39,990 nucleotides of DNA, taken from Verrucomicrobiota bacterium (GTDB taxonomy: Bacteria; Verrucomicrobiota; Verrucomicrobiia; Chthoniobacterales; JAFAMB01). Position 1 is the first letter of the stretch. The number at the start of each line of letters is the position of its first letter. Made by a program: the position numbers and the translations under genes. Of this stretch, positions 1,011 through 11,576 are shown piece after piece. The notes beneath the pieces are model-generated. The model saw only the letters and a program-made list of their open reading frames with translations, was not told the DNA's origin and did no database searches. The stretch is from assembly GCA_019246215.1 (NCBI GenBank), contig JAFAQT010000053.1, forward strand, positions 1-39,990. The letters are read 5' to 3'.

Positions 1011-1811
1011 ATGAACGGGTCCGACCGGCTATGGGTTGAGTTGGCCTTGATTTCGTACCTCACAGGCTTCGCGTATTCAGTCTATTTGCTGGCTACCAAG
1101 AAATTCCTGACTCCGGGCGTTAGCTTCTGGGCTATCTGTGCCGGATTCCTGTTTACGACCATGTTCCTGTTTGACCGTGGACACGCGATTGGGCGTTGTC
1201 CGATTACGAATCGGTTCGAGGTGCTGGTTTTTATGACTTGGTCAATGGTGCTCATTTACCTGCTCATCGGTTCGACTTATCGCCTCTCGTTGATGGGTGC
1301 GTTTACCGCACCGGTGGCCTGCGCTTTGCTGTTTTTTGCGGTCGCGCTTTCTCCGAACGAATCGGCGGTAAAAAGAATCAAGGTGAATCCTTGGCTCGAG
1401 GCGCATACCTCGTTTTCAATGGTGGCTTGCGGGGCGTTTGCGTTGGCATGCATCGCCGGCGTGATGTTTTTAATCCAGGAGCGCCAGCTAAAGACCCGCC
1501 AACCCAGCTCAATCTTTTACCGGCTTCCACCGATCACAGCATTGTCAGTCGTGAATTCCCGTCTGCTGTGGCTGGGATTTATTCTCTTCACGGTTGGGCT
1601 CGCGACGGGGTTTCTGATCGGCGGGCACATCAACTGGCTGCAGGCGGTATGGTCTATCCTGGTTTGGTGCGTCTACGGCGGCATCCTTATCGCCAGGGTA
1701 CGCCATGCTATGGCGGCCAAGTGGGTTGCGACCCTGTCGATCGTTGCTTTTAGCTTGTTATTGAGCACGTTTTGGGGGATCCGGTTTATCTCTGAGCGTC
1801 CATCGCTTTAA
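1011..1811 (+). CDS. HemX/CcsA-like cytochrome c assembly family membrane protein
   Basis: Multi-TM protein with RCPITNRFEVLVFMTWSMVLIYLLIG; TAATG overlap with hemA (HemX-type position). Confidence 0.8.
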   Translation: MNGSDRLWVELALISYLTGFAYSVYLLATKKFLTPGVSFWAICAGFLFTTMFLFDRGHAIGRCPITNRFEVLVFMTWSMVLIYLLIGSTYRLSLMGAFTAPVACALLFFAVALSPNESAVKRIKVNPWLEAHTSFSMVACGAFALACIAGVMFLIQERQLKTRQPSSIFYRLPPITALSVVNSRLLWLGFILFTVGLATGFLIGGHINWLQAVWSILVWCVYGGILIARVRHAMAAKWVATLSIVAFSLLLSTFWGIRFISERPSL

Positions 1812-2866
1812 TGCAAATACTCTGTTTCGGCATCAGTCATCAGACGGCAAATGTTGAGGTCCGGGAACGATTTGCGGTTCCAGACTCGGCGCTGGCCGAT
1901 TCGTTGACTCGACTCTCGCAGGTTCCGAGCGTCCTGGAAAGTGTGCTCCTGTCGACCTGCAACCGAACAGAATTCTATATCGTCACGCACGATTCACAGT
2001 TGGCCATCGAACCTCTTTTTCATAGTTTCTATGGACCAGTCGAGGCCAGCGCGTTCCAGCATCTCTTCCGTTTACAGGCTGTTTCCTCAATCCGGCATTT
2101 GTTTCGGGTTGCTTCCGGGCTCGAGTCAATGGTCTTCGGCGAGACGGAGATTTTTGGGCAGGTTAAACGAGCCTATGAGGCAGCCGCGAGGTTGGGGACG
2201 ACGGGCAGAATCTTGAACCGGCTTTTCCAAAAGGCATTCCACGTCGGCAAGCACATACGATCGGCAACTGCGATCACTCGTGGCAGTGTTTCCGTCGGTT
2301 CTGTGGCCGTGGATCTGGCTCGACAGATTTTCGGGGAACTTAAAGCACATAAAATCATGATCTTGGGTGCCGGCGAGACGAGCGAACGAACGGCTTGGAG
2401 CTTTCAGTCGCAGGGAGCCAGGCAATTGTTTGTCTCGAATCGCTCGTTCGAACGAGCGACAGAACTAGCCGAAGCAATCGGCGGGCGAGCCATCCGTTTT
2501 GATCATTGGGAAGACGAATTTCGCGATCTGGACATCCTGGTCAGTTCCACTGCTGCGCCACACGCAATCGTGACGAGGGCCAAGCTCGAGCCGGTCCTGA
2601 GAATGCGGCGCGATCGACCGCTTTTCATAATCGACCTTGCCATACCCCGAGACGTCGATCCGGCTGTCCACCAGATGGACGGCGTTTATGTCTATGATCT
2701 GGATTCGCTCCAGGCGATCGCAGCGCGCACACTGGAGGCCCGGAAGGAGGAGGCAGAAGCTTGCGATCACATGATCGAAAAACATGTTCAAGATTTCGAG
2801 GCATGGTTAGACCGGATCGCCGAACGGGCGATTACATCGGCGGCAATCGAGTGCCCGCGCACGTGA
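1811..2866 (+). CDS. hemA: Glutamyl-tRNA reductase
   Basis: LLSTCNRTEFYIVT catalytic Cys region, GLESMVFGETEIFGQVKRAY, NAD-binding ILGAGETSE. Confidence 0.96.
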   Translation: MQILCFGISHQTANVEVRERFAVPDSALADSLTRLSQVPSVLESVLLSTCNRTEFYIVTHDSQLAIEPLFHSFYGPVEASAFQHLFRLQAVSSIRHLFRVASGLESMVFGETEIFGQVKRAYEAAARLGTTGRILNRLFQKAFHVGKHIRSATAITRGSVSVGSVAVDLARQIFGELKAHKIMILGAGETSERTAWSFQSQGARQLFVSNRSFERATELAEAIGGRAIRFDHWEDEFRDLDILVSSTAAPHAIVTRAKLEPVLRMRRDRPLFIIDLAIPRDVDPAVHQMDGVYVYDLDSLQAIAARTLEARKEEAEACDHMIEKHVQDFEAWLDRIAERAITSAAIECPRT

Positions 2867-3792
2867 AGAGAGTTGTTCTTGGAACTCGCGGTAGCCAGCT
2901 GGCATTGGCCCAAGCTGAACTTGTCAAACAAGCCCTCGAGCGGCTACCGGAGACGTCGGAAATTATAGTCCGGATCGTCCGTACAACCGGTGATCGAAGA
3001 CTCGATATCAGTCTCAGCAAGCCAGGACCGAAACTTGGCAAGGGATTGTTCACCAAGGAGCTAGAAGAGGCTCTGTTGAGTCGAGAAATTGATGTTGCGG
3101 TGCACTCTTTGAAGGACCTGCCGACCGAACTAGCGCCGGGACTCGAGTTGACGGCGACCTTGCCGCGGCACGACCCAGTGGACGTCCTGATCTCCAAGTC
3201 CGCGAAGTCCCTGCGCGAAATCCCTGCAGGGGGAGTCGTAGCGACCAGCAGCCCTCGGAGGGCTCGCCAGATAGCGGTCCATCGGCCGGATTTGCGCGTG
3301 GCAAACATCCGCGGCAATGTCTCTACCCGCATCGCCAAGCTTCTGGCCGAAGATTCATGGAACTCGCTTGTGTTAGCGAAAGCCGGCCTGGCGAGACTCG
3401 GCTACGGCCTCACTACCGGCCTCTTGGAGTTTGAGAGCGGTCAGCTGTTCGTGACGGATTTAGTGGAAATTTTACCAGCAGCAGGACAGGGTGCGATCGG
3501 CTTGGAAATCAGAGCTAATGAATCGGAGCTTCACCATTTTCTGGCCAACATTAACGACGCGTCGACTTGGTTTTGCACTGGCGTCGAACGGGAGTTCTTG
3601 CGGTTATTGGGTGGCGGCTGCAATTTGCCACTTGGGCTTCGGACCTGGCTGAAGGGGAATGAGCTGCGCTGCGAGGCGATCATTTTTGATGCAAGCGACG
3701 AACCGCGGTTCGGAACGGTTTCGGGCGAATTCAAGACGCCGAGGGCGGCGGCAGCCGCGCTTTTTAACAGGATTTATGATGAACGAAAGTAA
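2863..3792 (+). CDS. hemC: Porphobilinogen deaminase (hydroxymethylbilane synthase)
   Basis: LGTRGSQLALAQ, HSLKDLPTEL, GGGCNLPLG cofactor-Cys motif; GTG at 2863 gives a GTGA overlap with the hemA stop (ORF-track start 2761 is longer). Confidence 0.93.
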   Translation: MKRVVLGTRGSQLALAQAELVKQALERLPETSEIIVRIVRTTGDRRLDISLSKPGPKLGKGLFTKELEEALLSREIDVAVHSLKDLPTELAPGLELTATLPRHDPVDVLISKSAKSLREIPAGGVVATSSPRRARQIAVHRPDLRVANIRGNVSTRIAKLLAEDSWNSLVLAKAGLARLGYGLTTGLLEFESGQLFVTDLVEILPAAGQGAIGLEIRANESELHHFLANINDASTWFCTGVEREFLRLLGGGCNLPLGLRTWLKGNELRCEAIIFDASDEPRFGTVSGEFKTPRAAAAALFNRIYDERK

Positions 3793-5287
3793 AGGACTTT
3801 GCGTGCTTGCCGGAGCTGGTCCGGGCGATATCGGACTGGTTACCGTACGTGCAAGGGAGGCCCTCGAACAGGCGCAAGTCGTTGTTTACGATTATCTTTG
3901 CAACCCTGAGATCCTGAAATGGGCGCCGGCAGATGCGGAGATTGTGTTTGCGGGGAAAAAATCCGGTCAGCACACAATACATCAAGAAGAGATCAACCAA
4001 TTTTTGGTTAATAAGACAAAGGAAGGGAAACGTGTGGTGCGGTTGAAGGGGGGCGATCCGTTCGTCTTCGGAAGAGGAGGCGAAGAAGCCGAAGCACTGG
4101 CTGCAGCGGGTTTGACGTTCGAAATCGTGCCAGGGATAAGCTCGGCAATCGCGGTCCCCGCGTACGCAGGGATACCGTTGACCCATCGGGATTTTGTTTC
4201 CTCTTTTACGGTTTTTACCGGCCATGAGGATCCGGCCAAAGAGAAGACTGCCATTAACTATAAGGCGCTGGTAGCGGGAAAGGGGACTTTAGTGATGATG
4301 ATGGGGACGGATCGCCTTGCGTCGATCGTTCCGCAGCTGCTGGCGAATGGAGCGGATCCCCACCTCCCAGTTGCCCTGATTCGTTGGGGAACGACCGGGC
4401 GTCAGGAAACTCTCGTCGGGGTGCTGGAGTCCATCGTTACCGCCTCAGCCGGATTTCAGTCGCCGGCGATTGTGGTCTTCGGTCGAGTGGTCGAATTGCG
4501 CGACAGACTGCGGTGGTTTGAGAGAAGGCCGCTCTTTGGCCGGCGGATCGTCGTGACACGTACCCGGAAACAGGCAAGTGCTTTTGCTGCGAAATTAAGA
4601 GTTTTAGGGGCGGATGTCTACGAACTGCCGACCATCCGGGTCCAAGCCCCTGAAAACCTTATGGAATTCGGTGAATTGGTGCGCGATGCATTTCAATACG
4701 ACTGGTTGATTTTTACGAGCGCCAACGGCGTCGACGCTTTCTTTGATATGTTCTACCGCCTCTATGACGATGCTCGCAGTATCGGGAATGTGAAAATTGC
4801 GGCGATTGGGCCGGCTACCGCTCAACGCATCAAAAACTTCCACCTGGCGGTCGATGTGCAGCCAAAGGAATTCATTGCAGAGGCGATCATCGATGGCGTT
4901 TTGGAATTTGGCAGCGTCGAGAACCTGAAGTTTCTCGTGGTGAGAGCTCTGAACGCACGGGAGGTTTTGCCGAAGAGACTAACGGAACTCGGCGCCATTG
5001 TGGACGAGGCCGTCGCTTATCGGACGGTACCGGAAACAGAGGATATGTCGGGCGCCCTGGAAAGATTTCAAGCGGAGGGAGCGGATCTTGTAACTTTCAC
5101 CAGCTCCTCGACAGTAGAAAATTTTCTGGCATTGAAGCTTCCTTGGCCGCCAGAGATGAAAACGGCAAGTATCGGCCCAATCACCTCCGAGACGATGCGG
5201 AAGAAAGGCTTGCCGGTCGACGTGGAAGCCGCCCAATACGATGTGGAAGGCCTCGTGGCAGCGGTGCTCGGTCTGTATGCGAAGTAA
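3779..5287 (+). CDS. Uroporphyrinogen-III C-methyltransferase / uroporphyrinogen-III synthase fusion
   Basis: N-terminal SUMT (GAGPGDIGLVTVRA, VVRLKGGDPFVFGRGGEE, VPGISSAIAVPAYAGIPLTHR) fused to HemD-like domain (LFGRRIVVTRTRKQASAFAAKLRVLGADVYELPTI); ATG 3779 inside ORF 3659..5287. Confidence 0.93.
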   Translation: MNESKGLCVLAGAGPGDIGLVTVRAREALEQAQVVVYDYLCNPEILKWAPADAEIVFAGKKSGQHTIHQEEINQFLVNKTKEGKRVVRLKGGDPFVFGRGGEEAEALAAAGLTFEIVPGISSAIAVPAYAGIPLTHRDFVSSFTVFTGHEDPAKEKTAINYKALVAGKGTLVMMMGTDRLASIVPQLLANGADPHLPVALIRWGTTGRQETLVGVLESIVTASAGFQSPAIVVFGRVVELRDRLRWFERRPLFGRRIVVTRTRKQASAFAAKLRVLGADVYELPTIRVQAPENLMEFGELVRDAFQYDWLIFTSANGVDAFFDMFYRLYDDARSIGNVKIAAIGPATAQRIKNFHLAVDVQPKEFIAEAIIDGVLEFGSVENLKFLVVRALNAREVLPKRLTELGAIVDEAVAYRTVPETEDMSGALERFQAEGADLVTFTSSSTVENFLALKLPWPPEMKTASIGPITSETMRKKGLPVDVEAAQYDVEGLVAAVLGLYAK

Positions 5288-7424: not shown

Positions 7425-7859
7425 ATGAAACCGCATCATTTTCTCAAAGCTATCGACCACGACAGAATTGTGTCGACTATTGCTGCTGCCGAAAAACGAA
7501 CGAGCGGTGACATCCGCGTCTTCATCAGCCGCCGAAAAACGAGCGATGCGCTCCATGCAGCCGGCCTTTGCTTCACCAGGCTGAAAATGAATCAGACGCC
7601 GTTGCGGAACGCGGTCCTGATTTTCGTCGCTCCGGTGTCGCATCAATTTGCGGTGGTCGGCGACACTGGTGTTCATGCCAAATGCGGCGATGACTTCTGG
7701 CGTGAAGTCGTTGAGGGAATGGAGTCTAGTCTGAGACGTGGTGATTTTACCGAAGCGCTAGTGCACGGCGTTCAAAAGGTCGGCGCGTTGCTCGCCGCCC
7801 ATTTTCCGCCCAATCCCGATGGCAAAAATAACCTGCCCGATGCCGTGATGGAGGAATGA
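7425..7859 (+). CDS. TPM-domain protein (second copy, shorter)
   Basis: IVSTIAAAEKRTSGDIRVFISRR..LRNAVLIFVAPVSHQFAVVGDTGVHAKCGDDFW; adjacent to lemA and first TPM gene. Confidence 0.82.
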   Translation: MKPHHFLKAIDHDRIVSTIAAAEKRTSGDIRVFISRRKTSDALHAAGLCFTRLKMNQTPLRNAVLIFVAPVSHQFAVVGDTGVHAKCGDDFWREVVEGMESSLRRGDFTEALVHGVQKVGALLAAHFPPNPDGKNNLPDAVMEE

Positions 7860-7865
7860 TCGCGA

Positions 7866-7992
7866 AAGGAGTACAGGAATGCAGAATGCGACCCGAATCG
7901 GTTATCGAAGGAAGAATTTTAAGGATACGTCGGTTGCGAGGCCGTTATTCAGCTATGAGCGCCTTCTGAACTCCTCCTACTCCTGAACTCCC
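7866..7992. repeat. Family A inverted-arm intergenic element, copy 1
   Basis: Left arm AGGAGTACAGGAATGCAG (~7867) and right arm CTTCTGAACTCCTCCTACTCCTGAACTCC (~7963-7991), whose reverse complement begins GGAGTTCAGGAGT. Confidence 0.5.
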
Positions 7993-7999
7993 TTATCCA

Positions 8000-9145
8000 A
8001 TGCCTGCAACTCGGATCCTGACGGCCGTTCCGATTTGTGACGGTCACGACAGCGCCATCAACACGATCAACCTCGAATTCATTCGCCACGGCGTCGAAGT
8101 CGTTTATCTGGGGTACAATCGTTCGGCAAGGGACATCGTGCGGGCTGCTCTTCAAGAAGATGCGGTTGCGATTGGTATCTCGACCTACAACGGCGGGCAT
8201 GTTGAATTTTTTGAGGAAGTCCTCGACCGGTTAAACCAACTTCGTCTCACCCCGATGATCAAGATTTTTGGAGGCGGCGGTGGAACGATCACGGCGGAGG
8301 AGGCCAAGATCATGTATGCACGGGGTGTTGATCGGATTTTCTTTGCCGGAACGCCCCTCGCGGAAATGTTGGGCTATCTCAGGGCACAGTACCGCGACGT
8401 CGTTCAGCAACCCTACGAGCGATTGTTCATCGGCACCGACCAATATTTGGCACGCGAGTTGACGCTTGGAGAACGCGGCGCCCCCGGCTCACCTGAACAG
8501 ATTCCGGCTGCCACCAAGCCTGACTGCAAAACCAAGGTGATTGGGTTGACCGGCCCCGGAGGCGCCGGAAAAACAACACTCATCGATGAACTGGTTTATC
8601 GGTTTCTTCGCTCTCGGCCGCAAAACCAGCGTGTTGCGATCCTTGCTCATGATCCCAGCATGATCGGGTCGGGTGCGCTCCTTGGCGACCGGGCTACGAT
8701 GATTTATTCCCAGGATGATCGCGTGTTCATGAGGAGCCTGGCCACGCGAGGTCAGACAGGAGGACTTAGTCCATCGACGCATCGATGCTTGGACATTCTC
8801 CGCAAAAGCGAGCTGTTTGATGTCATACTGGTCGAGACGGTCGGCACTGGTCAGGAGGCGATTCCCTTCGGAAGTGGAGCGCTCGGGGGCGTTGATAAAG
8901 CGGTCCTCGTTGTGCCGCCGGATTACGGAAGCCAGCTTCAATTGCAGAAAATCGCCATGATCGACTCCGCGGATGCAATCGTGGTAAATAAATCTGATTT
9001 GCCAGGGTGCAAAACTGCAGTCGCCGAAATTGAATACCGGATTCGGGCAAATCAAAAGGGTCAAGCGTTGCTACGTACCCAGGCCAACCGCCACCGCGAT
9101 ACAGGGGTGGACCAGCTTTTCGAAAGCTTTCTTGGACGGGAATAG
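8000..9145 (+). CDS. B12-binding domain + MeaB/MeaI-type G-protein chaperone fusion (N-terminal half of an IcmF-like mutase)
   Basis: PICDGHDSAINTINLEFIRHGVEVVYLGYNRSARDIVRAALQEDAVAIGISTYNGGHVEFF (B12-binding, IcmF-like), Walker A GPGGAGKTT, GALLGDRATM, FMRSLATRG, VETVGTGQ, NKSD. Confidence 0.9.
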   Translation: MPATRILTAVPICDGHDSAINTINLEFIRHGVEVVYLGYNRSARDIVRAALQEDAVAIGISTYNGGHVEFFEEVLDRLNQLRLTPMIKIFGGGGGTITAEEAKIMYARGVDRIFFAGTPLAEMLGYLRAQYRDVVQQPYERLFIGTDQYLARELTLGERGAPGSPEQIPAATKPDCKTKVIGLTGPGGAGKTTLIDELVYRFLRSRPQNQRVAILAHDPSMIGSGALLGDRATMIYSQDDRVFMRSLATRGQTGGLSPSTHRCLDILRKSELFDVILVETVGTGQEAIPFGSGALGGVDKAVLVVPPDYGSQLQLQKIAMIDSADAIVVNKSDLPGCKTAVAEIEYRIRANQKGQALLRTQANRHRDTGVDQLFESFLGRE

Positions 9146-9157
9146 GGATGAAGCGGA

Positions 9158-9295
9158 AGAATTCAGGACTTGCAAGCGTTCAAGGGGCCAGGAGTTGGCG
9201 GCCTTTGCACTTCTGGTACTTCATTTGACTCGCATTTGAGAATGAGACGATGCACTGGGACTAGTCGCGAATTCTGGAACTCCTGAACTCCTGGT
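9158..9295. repeat. Family A inverted-arm intergenic element, copy 2
   Basis: CCAGGAGTT (9188-9196) versus AACTCCTGG (9286-9294), plus GAATTCAGGAC at left and GAATTCTGGAACTCCTGAACTCCTGG at right; lies between the two mutase ORFs. Confidence 0.5.
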
Positions 9296-9329
9296 ATTTT
9301 CTGGCTTCTAATTCGGAATTCTTTTCCCG

Positions 9330-11120
9330 ATGACTTCACTCGGACAAATTATTGCCGCCATCGAGAACTACCGGCATTCCGGTCTTGGCCAAGTGCAAAA
9401 GGCGCGTACTGACCGCGATTTGGGGGAACGGATGTTGCAAACATGGCGAGAAGCCAAGGACAAAATTGGTTTTACCGTGACTCCGACGGGACTACGTCTA
9501 CCGCGTCTGGCCTTACCAGACCTGGATGAGCCCGGAGAAATTGCGCGCTTCTTGTGGGACGAGGGATTGCCGGGGGAATTTCCTTTCCTGACGAGTGCCT
9601 ATGCGGAGCAGTACCTGGATCCTGGCTCAGCGGAACCAACAGAGAACGAAAAACAACAAAGTGGCGTTAAAATCGGGAGTGAAGAACCGACGCGATTATT
9701 TGCCGGCTTGGGTCTGGCCGAGGACACTAACGCTCGATTCCATTATTTGTCGCGCAACCAACGCAGCAAACGATTGAGCACTGCGTTCGATGGTCCGACC
9801 CTTTACGGGGTTGGCGCTGGTGCTGATGGAGTTTTCGGGAAGATCGGGGAGGGTGGAGTAGCGATTGACACCATTGAGGATATGGAGCGGCTATATGCTG
9901 GGTTTGCTCTCGATCAGCCCGATGTTTCCGTTTCCATGACGATCTCTGGTCCGGCTCCGATTCTCTTGGCCATGTACGTTGCTGCGGCAAAACATCGATT
10001 CGGATCAGATGTCGCTGCCAAGTTGCGTGGCACGATCCAGGCCGACGTTCTGAAAGAGGTTCAAGCTCAGAACGAGTTGATTTTCCCGATCGAACCCTCT
10101 CTCCGCTTTCTGGCGGACATGGTAGATTATTGCTCACAACAGATGCCGAAATGGTATCCGATATCGATCAGTGGATACCACATCGCAGAAGCGGGCGCGA
10201 CACCGGTTCAGCAGGCTGCCTACACTCTTTCGAACGGGTTCGCGTACGTAGATTACTTTCGGAATCGCGGCATGGACGCGAACGTGTTCGGGCCGCGGCT
10301 TTCATTCTTTCTGGATTGCGGGCTGGATATTGAATATATCGCGCTCTTGCGCATCTGCCGGAAGATCTGGGCAATAGGAATGCGCGACGTTTATGGTGCG
10401 GACAAACGAGCGCAAACCCTGAAGCTTCACACGCAGACGAGCGGTCGATCGTTGATCGCAGCGGACTGGCCGAACAATCTCACAAGAACGGCTCTGGAGC
10501 TGATGTTGGCTTACATGAACGCGACGAATTCCTGTCATAGCAATTCGGCGGATGAGCCATTTACCACCCCGAGCGAGGAATACGCCCGTTACGCGGCTCA
10601 TGCACAGGCAATTTTGCTCGAAGAAAGCGGATTATTTAAACACATGATGAACACGCTCCAGGGATCGCCCGGAATGAAGGTGGTGGGTAACGCCGTGGAA
10701 GAAGCGATCCTGGAAGAGTTCCGTGAAATCGAGCAACAGGGGGGAGTGCTGGGTGCGGTCGAGCGACGTTACCAGCGGAGCCAGATTCAGGCAGCCGGCT
10801 ACTTGTTGGAACGCCAGATCTGCAACGGGGTTCGTCCGGTGGTAGGGCTCAACCGATACAACGATCCCGACGGAAACTGGCCCGAGGTCCACATGATCCG
10901 AACGGCTAAGGAAAAGAAGCAACTTCAACGCGATCGGTTACAGGATTTTGAGAAGCGGCATGCCGGAGAGAAATTGCAGAGCCTCGATCGGCTATCAACA
11001 GTGGTTGAGCAAGGAGGCAACGTCTTCGAAGAGCTCATTTACACGGTAGAACATTGTTCACTGGGCCAGATTACGGAGCGATTCTGCGAGGTGGTTGGAA
11101 AATTTCGACCGATGGTCTGA
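9330..11120 (+). CDS. Methylmalonyl-/isobutyryl-CoA mutase family, catalytic large domain (C-terminal half of an IcmF-like mutase)
   Basis: EEPTRLFAGLGLAEDTNARFHYLSRNQRSKRLSTAFDGPTLYG, VSMTISGPAPILLAMY, SISGYHIAEAGATPVQQAAYTLSNGFAYVDYFRNRGMDANVFGPRLSFFLDCGLDIEY, QTSGRSLIAADWPNNLTRTALELMLAYMNATNSCHSNSADE. Confidence 0.92.
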   Translation: MTSLGQIIAAIENYRHSGLGQVQKARTDRDLGERMLQTWREAKDKIGFTVTPTGLRLPRLALPDLDEPGEIARFLWDEGLPGEFPFLTSAYAEQYLDPGSAEPTENEKQQSGVKIGSEEPTRLFAGLGLAEDTNARFHYLSRNQRSKRLSTAFDGPTLYGVGAGADGVFGKIGEGGVAIDTIEDMERLYAGFALDQPDVSVSMTISGPAPILLAMYVAAAKHRFGSDVAAKLRGTIQADVLKEVQAQNELIFPIEPSLRFLADMVDYCSQQMPKWYPISISGYHIAEAGATPVQQAAYTLSNGFAYVDYFRNRGMDANVFGPRLSFFLDCGLDIEYIALLRICRKIWAIGMRDVYGADKRAQTLKLHTQTSGRSLIAADWPNNLTRTALELMLAYMNATNSCHSNSADEPFTTPSEEYARYAAHAQAILLEESGLFKHMMNTLQGSPGMKVVGNAVEEAILEEFREIEQQGGVLGAVERRYQRSQIQAAGYLLERQICNGVRPVVGLNRYNDPDGNWPEVHMIRTAKEKKQLQRDRLQDFEKRHAGEKLQSLDRLSTVVEQGGNVFEELIYTVEHCSLGQITERFCEVVGKFRPMV

Positions 11121-11336
11121 TGTAGACCCGGTCGGCGGATTGCGTGTGAGCGTGTTGGCAGACTCCGGTATCGGAGGAAGCAAAGGTCCCGAAGACGGAA
11201 GGTCTCCGTAGCTGCACCTGGAGATCAACCGATTTGGTTCTCAGGAGCCAGAGCGAAACGCTGCGCTTACAAAAAGGCAACCGTTGCTGCGCGGCGTAAC
11301 CGCGAATGATGGTTCTACGTCTGCACTGGTAACGAT

Positions 11337-11576
11337 ATGAAAAAAATTTTTCTTGTTTCGGCAATGATGTTTGCCGTTGCACTGACGGCTCAACCTAAGG
11401 CGCAAGCGGGTATCTTCGTGCGCTTCGGTCTGCCGATCCCGGTCCCTGTTCCGTACTTTTATGGTCCAGCGTATTACCCGGGCGGCTATTACTATGGTCC
11501 TTACGGGTACGAGTACTACAGGCGACCTTATTGGCACGATCGGTATTGGAGTCACGGACATTGGTGTTATCGCTAA
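11337..11576 (+). CDS. Small secreted Tyr/Pro/Gly-rich protein
   Basis: MKKIFLVSAMMFAVALTAQPKAQA signal peptide, then GIFVRFGLPIPVPVPYFYGPAYYPGGYYYGPYGYEYYRRPYWHDRYWSHGHWCYR. Confidence 0.7.
   Translation: MKKIFLVSAMMFAVALTAQPKAQAGIFVRFGLPIPVPVPYFYGPAYYPGGYYYGPYGYEYYRRPYWHDRYWSHGHWCYR

Follow-up and report, generated by a model that had tools for sequence, protein, structure and literature searches.

IcmF, the fused form of isobutyryl-CoA mutase (CoA, coenzyme A), is a single polypeptide, and the locus studied here raises the question of what it means when the parts of such an enzyme are encoded by two neighbouring genes. The locus lies in a stretch of 39,990 nucleotides (the window) from a Verrucomicrobiota bacterium (assembly GCA_019246215.1, contig JAFAQT010000053.1, positions 1 to 39,990 of the forward strand). 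A preliminary description of the window had recognised an IcmF-like enzyme split into two open reading frames (ORFs) that follow the order of the IcmF domains, and had offered a distinct heteromeric architecture, a recent fission or an ancestral unfused state as explanations. Our analysis of gene structure, conservation, phylogeny and motif retention makes it quite probable that ORF1 and ORF2 encode a heteromeric IcmF-type mutase dependent on adenosylcobalamin (AdoCbl), most likely acting on n-butyryl-CoA/isobutyryl-CoA, with a two-gene state that is ancient and somewhat more likely ancestral. The elements of the locus are the following.

8000..9145, + strand: ORF1, the B12-G subunit, with a B12-binding domain and a MeaB/IcmF-type G domain, 381 amino acids (aa)
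9146..9329, + strand: intergenic gap between ORF1 and ORF2, 184 bp, carrying a copy of a repeated AACTCCTG element
9330..11120, + strand: ORF2, the catalytic acyl-CoA mutase subunit with an N-terminal linker helix, 596 aa

The coordinates, the lengths and the gap agree exactly with the preliminary description. No continuous frame connects the two ORFs, since the gap holds two stop codons when read in the frame of ORF1. The assembly behind the window is of metagenome type and fragmented (443 contigs), and this origin speaks for one alternative, that an assembly error, a frameshift or pseudogenisation has broken a fused icmF gene. Against it stands the recurrence of the same split, with intact frames, in 85 distinct adjacent pairs, none of which is fused, as well as in a single-contig genome (G175) and in two isolates carrying the intact pair, Chthoniobacter flavus Ellin428 and Haloferula sp. 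BvORR071. The conservation of the split, including its presence in single-contig genomes and isolates, refutes a sequencing error that hides one long frame, which the preliminary description had named among the outcomes that would overturn its reading, and leaves the likelihood of a broken gene practically negligible.

How widely the pair is kept was assessed at several levels. In an order-level sample of 57 relatives, mostly of the same order as the source, ORF1 was present in all 19 genomes with a full-length ORF2; one genome (G022) had ORF1 alone, and two fragmented genomes (G006 and G009) had ORF2 fragments only. Orthologs of ORF2 were found in 14 of 388 genomes of the phylum, all within the same class, and none of the 388 carried a full-length IcmF above the family cut-off. 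A scan of named genomes yielded 157 relatives, and the best 80 of the 157 are almost all Verrucomicrobiota. The most frequent arrangement is a 4-nucleotide overlap of start and stop (36 of the 85 pairs); spacing is 30 bp or less in 48 pairs and about 1 kb in four, with a median of 16 bp and a range in relatives from −26 to 1199 bp. The 184-bp gap is thus real in this window but atypical for the family. In three of the four pairs spaced by about 1 kb the interval holds other genes, as read from translations: a GNAT-type acetyltransferase in two loci (L066 and L076), and a toxin-antitoxin-like (VapBC-like) pair between positions 5073 and 6001 of L103. In three genomes (G029, G056 and G045) the homologues lie on different contigs, apart from each other, and in a fourth (G051) the two genes are about 1.8 kb apart. 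Since the genes are unlinked or separated in some genomes, the two polypeptides are made separately, and explanations by read-through or frameshifting therefore fail. The two-gene arrangement is old and has remained stable in Verrucomicrobiota.

Several long frames that might have represented fusions were rejected. A 1109-aa open frame (G233, L035) has a stop between the genes, a 965-aa frame (G066, L039) differs from the frame of ORF1, and matches to B12-binding and MeaB proteins in Halomarina and Natrinema belong to separate genes. A possible fused or truncated copy on a contig named Bryobacterales (L134) contains assembly gaps and is uninformative. This contig and three others (L087, L095 and L107), named Bryobacterales and Phycisphaerales, carry a pair of the verrucomicrobial type, reflecting either transfer or wrong binning or naming. 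In G051 the mutase ORF (L199:6713-8574) goes out of frame near residue 469 on a contig with runs of N, probably by assembly error or as a pseudogene. Short gaps between the two genes often hold GC-rich palindromic sequences resembling repetitive extragenic palindromic elements (L012, L013 and L016, from G017, G027 and G055).

The identity of the two proteins as IcmF parts rests on family matches, structure models and conserved residues. ORF1 matches the Pfam B12-binding (9e-14) and MeaB (8e-36) families and covers positions 3-391 of the 1076-position NCBIfam IcmF model (5e-76; 256 bits), which bears out the assignment of a B12 domain and a G domain to the first ORF. Its best solved relative is IcmF of Cupriavidus metallidurans (chain residues 47-433). 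The AlphaFold2 model of ORF1 (predicted local distance difference test, pLDDT, 84.6) superposes on IcmF across both the B12 and the G domain, with a TM-score of 0.86-0.87 and a root-mean-square deviation of about 3.2 over some 396 columns. ORF1 stops at the end of the G domain and is without the C-terminal arm of MeaB; the match to the MeaB model TIGR00750 ends at position 202 of 300, with a score under the cut-off. The following features were located in ORF1.

8009..8392, + strand: B12-binding domain, residues 4-131 (Pfam PF02310; NCBIfam TIGR00640 above cut-off)
8045..8047, + strand: His16 of the DGHD motif, expected lower axial cobalamin ligand, invariant in 21/21 two-gene and 24/24 fused sequences
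8444..9130, + strand: MeaB/IcmF-type G domain, residues 149-377 (Pfam PF03308 positions 1-228 of 273; TIGR00750 positions 4-202 of 300)
8552..8578, + strand: P-loop GPGGAGKTT, residues 185-193, with an invariant core
8696..8698, + strand: residue 233 in switch I, which aligns with MeaB R108 and is Thr, Ser or Ala in two-gene sequences
8939..8950, + strand: switch III Q314..K317, aligned with IcmF Q341 and K344, invariant in the two-gene and fused groups
8987..8998, + strand: NKxD guanine-specificity motif, N330-D333, kept in 21/21 two-gene sequences

ORF2 consists of an acyl-CoA mutase domain (Pfam MM_CoA_mutase, 3e-109) preceded by about 45 extra N-terminal residues, and has no B12 domain of its own. 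It covers positions 525-1073 of the IcmF model (1e-160; 537 bits), its best solved relative is again C. metallidurans IcmF (chain residues 553-1110), and the top 14 fold matches of its structure model (pLDDT 72.9) are all IcmF chains. The start of the protein had been described as linker-like, and it proves to be homologous to the linker of IcmF: a helix profile from the IcmF linker between G domain and mutase is matched by the opening helix of the ORF2 family (hhalign probability 89%, P 2.4e-6), and scores for the outgroup mutases tested stay at background level. In a joint alignment the mid-linker and a hairpin of IcmF are absent from the two-gene proteins. The features of ORF2 are as follows.

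9336..9464, + strand: two helices predicted at the N-terminus, residues 3-27 and 29-45 (as far as residue 40, pLDDT is about 91-94)
9477..11108, + strand: substrate-binding (TIM barrel) mutase domain, residues 50-593 (NCBIfam IcmF positions 525-1073)
9699..9701, + strand: Phe124, aligned with the IcmF substrate-specificity residue F598, Phe in every two-gene and fused row
10068..10070, + strand: Gln247, aligned with the IcmF specificity residue Q742, Gln in every two-gene and fused row
10179..10181, + strand: His284 of SGYH, aligned with the catalytic His of IcmF and methylmalonyl-CoA mutase (MCM), invariant

His16, the P-loop, NKxD, Gln314, Lys317, His284 and the Phe124/Gln247 pair are kept in 21 of 21 two-gene sequences. 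Among the sampled rows the specificity pair is Phe/Gln in two-gene and fused enzymes, Tyr/Arg in those of MCM type and Ile/Gln in HcmA. Model, fold and family matches thus uphold an IcmF-like enzyme laid out over two ORFs in IcmF order, and a distinct heteromeric architecture is supported at the level of sequence only.

The relation of the two-gene form to fused IcmF was investigated in a mutase-domain tree of 75 sequences, in which 24 fused IcmFs represent Actinomycetota, Bacillota, Pseudomonadota, Bacteroidota and the phylum of G434, a genome named Bryobacterales and probably from Acidobacteriota. All two-gene mutases form a single clade (support 100/99); its sister group is made up of the 24 fused IcmFs (100/100), and it stays separate from the HcmA of Methylibium and Xanthobacter. 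An independent G-domain tree gave the same topology. On a reduced set the approximately unbiased (AU) test rejected a two-gene clade placed within the fused IcmFs (p 7e-5 and 2e-5); of the opposite nesting, it rejected one arrangement (p 0.005). The preliminary description had tied its reading to the mutase falling within the IcmF clade, and the result is intermediate, since the two-gene mutases stand beside all sampled fused IcmFs and not among them. These trees argue for a sister lineage and not a broken IcmF.

How would such an enzyme work? In IcmF and MeaB the mutase is wedged open, so that AdoCbl can be exchanged, when G domains pair through switch III in a GTP-dependent manner, and a role of Q341 and K344 of IcmF switch III has been described (PMC10481361). 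By analogy with IcmF and MeaB we infer a comparable GTP cycle for ORF1 and ORF2, together with the formation of a complex. ORF2 would be the mutase core, a TIM barrel, to which ORF1 would supply the capping B12 domain in trans, so that the B12 subunit would carry its own MeaB-type G-protein chaperone. The GTP-bound G domains of two ORF1 molecules may pair via switch III, and the wedge formed in this way would push the B12 cap off ORF2. With the cap open, an adenosyltransferase could load AdoCbl, or damaged cobalamin could leave; GTP hydrolysis would then free the wedge and the cap would shut for catalysis. As ORF1 is without the MeaB arm, pairing of its G domains should be transient, as in IcmF. 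The host genome encodes one PduO-type adenosyltransferase, which presumably supplies the AdoCbl.

One may instead suppose that ORF1 is only chaperone-like and serves another mutase, with ORF2 using another B12 subunit, and the few genomes with unlinked or separated genes would suit such a division. We regard this as very improbable, because ORF1 and ORF2 co-occur almost perfectly, ORF2 is without its own B12 domain, and the two genes are the only MeaB-type and mutase genes detected in the host, where other B12-binding matches are limited to two open frames of 530 and 1215 aa.

The proposed substrate is suggested by the active site and by gene context. Genes found next to the pair in relatives encode, among others, a short-chain dehydrogenase (in 45 loci), a thiolase and a CoA-transferase, which fits C4 acyl-CoA metabolism. 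The same architecture could nevertheless serve another substrate, such as isovaleryl/pivalyl-CoA or some unknown branched acyl-CoA. IcmF takes isovaleryl/pivalyl-CoA as well (PMC9974510), the stem branch to fused IcmF is long, and the short-chain dehydrogenase is the only broadly conserved neighbour. We consider a different substrate unlikely, given that the two-gene form agrees with IcmF in the Phe/Gln pair and at every other active-site position tested. Some observations do weigh against an n-butyryl-CoA/isobutyryl-CoA mutase that operates just as IcmF does. With a specificity pair that also allows isovaleryl/pivalyl-CoA, and with the long branch, the substrate could differ. Where MeaB has R108, all 24 fused IcmFs have Arg at the aligned position and the two-gene clade has Thr/Ser/Ala, and the GTP cycle may therefore differ in detail. 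Long branches join at the root between the two-gene clade and fused IcmF, and its position must for this reason be treated with caution.

With that caution, the direction of evolution can be considered. A recent fission is rejected: the two-gene state is conserved across Verrucomicrobiota families, its clade is deep, and a fused form was found in none of the 388 genomes of the phylum. An ancient fission is a different matter. A single-chain ancestor may have been split once in the linker, on the verrucomicrobial stem, with part of the linker kept as the N-terminus of the mutase. The order of the genes, which is that of the IcmF domains, the homology of the first ORF2 helix to the IcmF linker helix, with outgroup mutases at background, and the usually minimal spacing with start/stop overlap are all in its favour. 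However, no fused relic remains among the genomes of the phylum, and the trees put the two-gene clade outside every fused form sampled. The outgroups examined mostly have a gene each for B12 domain, MeaB and mutase (e.g. Ilyobacter, Methylibium, Xanthobacter), and with unfused outgroups a stepwise fusion, of B12 and G domains and then of the mutase, needs two events against three for fusion followed by fission. We therefore find ancient fission tenable but rather doubtful. Shared gene order and linker helix fit both directions, and the pre-fusion state is slightly favoured; the ancestral unfused state considered in the preliminary description is thus possible and a little preferred, though unproven. 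One may tentatively speculate further that the two-gene form is a surviving intermediate in the assembly of IcmF, in which the B12 domain captured the G chaperone before the mutase was fused, and that the B12-G protein might leave the core as a free AdoCbl cassette.

A B12-G fusion without a mutase is in any case a workable state, as a pair on plasmid pSymA of Sinorhizobium medicae ml20 (NZ_CP140965.1, L202:2932-6080) shows. There a B12-MeaB fusion of 486 aa, with a complete MeaB part, overlaps a separate mutase gene whose product is 59% identical to Xanthobacter HcmA and carries Val/Gln as its specificity pair; the record is unannotated at this place. The S. medicae pair is a separate, convergent case.

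The surroundings of the pair in the window are unrelated to it (tetrapyrrole genes, LemA, TPM-domain proteins, a sugar ABC transporter) and give no pathway clue. The tetrapyrrole cluster at 1011-5287 comprises a cytochrome c assembly-type protein, glutamyl-tRNA reductase and then a fused uroporphyrinogen methylase/HemD protein. A scan of 7700-11400 for promoters and terminators gave nothing exceeding chance. Copies related to GAACTCCTGAACTCC lie at 7977-7991 and 9277-9291, directly upstream of ORF1 and of ORF2 (2 matches observed vs 0.11 expected), and AACTC-rich stretches similar to these copies occur upstream of ORF2 in several relatives.

No prior description of the two-gene form was found in the literature searched, which did not reach key older papers (Cracan 2010). 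Automated annotation likely scatters the two genes under MCM and MeaB names, because neither ORF can reach the 1500-bit cut-off of the IcmF model NF045497. Structural work on MeaB and IcmF has posed the question of what benefit, if any, the fusion in IcmF brings (PMC9974510). The two-gene clade, with its chaperone tied to the B12 domain and not to the mutase core, is a natural comparison; it would allow the parts to be titrated separately, loading of B12-G off the enzyme to be tested, and stepwise fusion in enzyme evolution to be examined.

Among known systems, MCM with its chaperone MeaB shares the mutase fold and the logic of a G-protein chaperone with the two-gene form. The B12 domain is however on the mutase chain in most MCM relatives sampled and on ORF1 here, ORF2 has Phe124/Gln247 instead of the Tyr/Arg pair, and MeaB is free-standing with a C-terminal dimerisation arm, whereas the G domain of ORF1 is fused to the B12 domain and armless. 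The classical isobutyryl-CoA mutase (ICM; IcmA/IcmB with MeaI) and 2-hydroxyisobutyryl-CoA mutase (HCM; HcmA/HcmB with MeaH) likewise keep mutase core and B12 domain on separate chains and have Gln at the second specificity position; ORF2, a core on its own chain with Phe/Gln, resembles ICM in this respect. In both classical systems B12 domain and G protein are encoded separately (as seen in Methylibium and on Xanthobacter plasmids), and the small subunit of ICM is a B12 domain alone, while ORF1 joins B12 and G domains in one chain, and the distinction drawn earlier from IcmA/IcmB/MeaI therefore holds. HCM differs further by Ile at the first specificity position and by its clustering with HcmA, in place of Phe124 and a separate clade. 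The S. medicae pair has the same plan, a B12-G fusion followed by an overlapping mutase gene, but unlike ORF1 and ORF2 it lies on the HcmA side of the tree, with a full-length MeaB part and Val/Gln. IcmF (C. metallidurans PDB 4XC6 and others; NF045497) is closest: it has the same domains, order and fold, a shared linker helix, the same axial His, P-loop, NKxD, switch III Gln/Lys, catalytic His and Phe/Gln residues, and is the sister clade in two trees. It differs in being one polypeptide, where the two-gene form consists of two with a shorter linker, and in the Arg at the R108 position that marks the fused clade off from the distinct, mostly verrucomicrobial two-gene clade. A B12-G ORF and a mutase ORF with a linker helix, forming one clade in both trees, define the group, which, judged from its sequences, is best called a two-gene sister family of IcmF that would work like IcmF.

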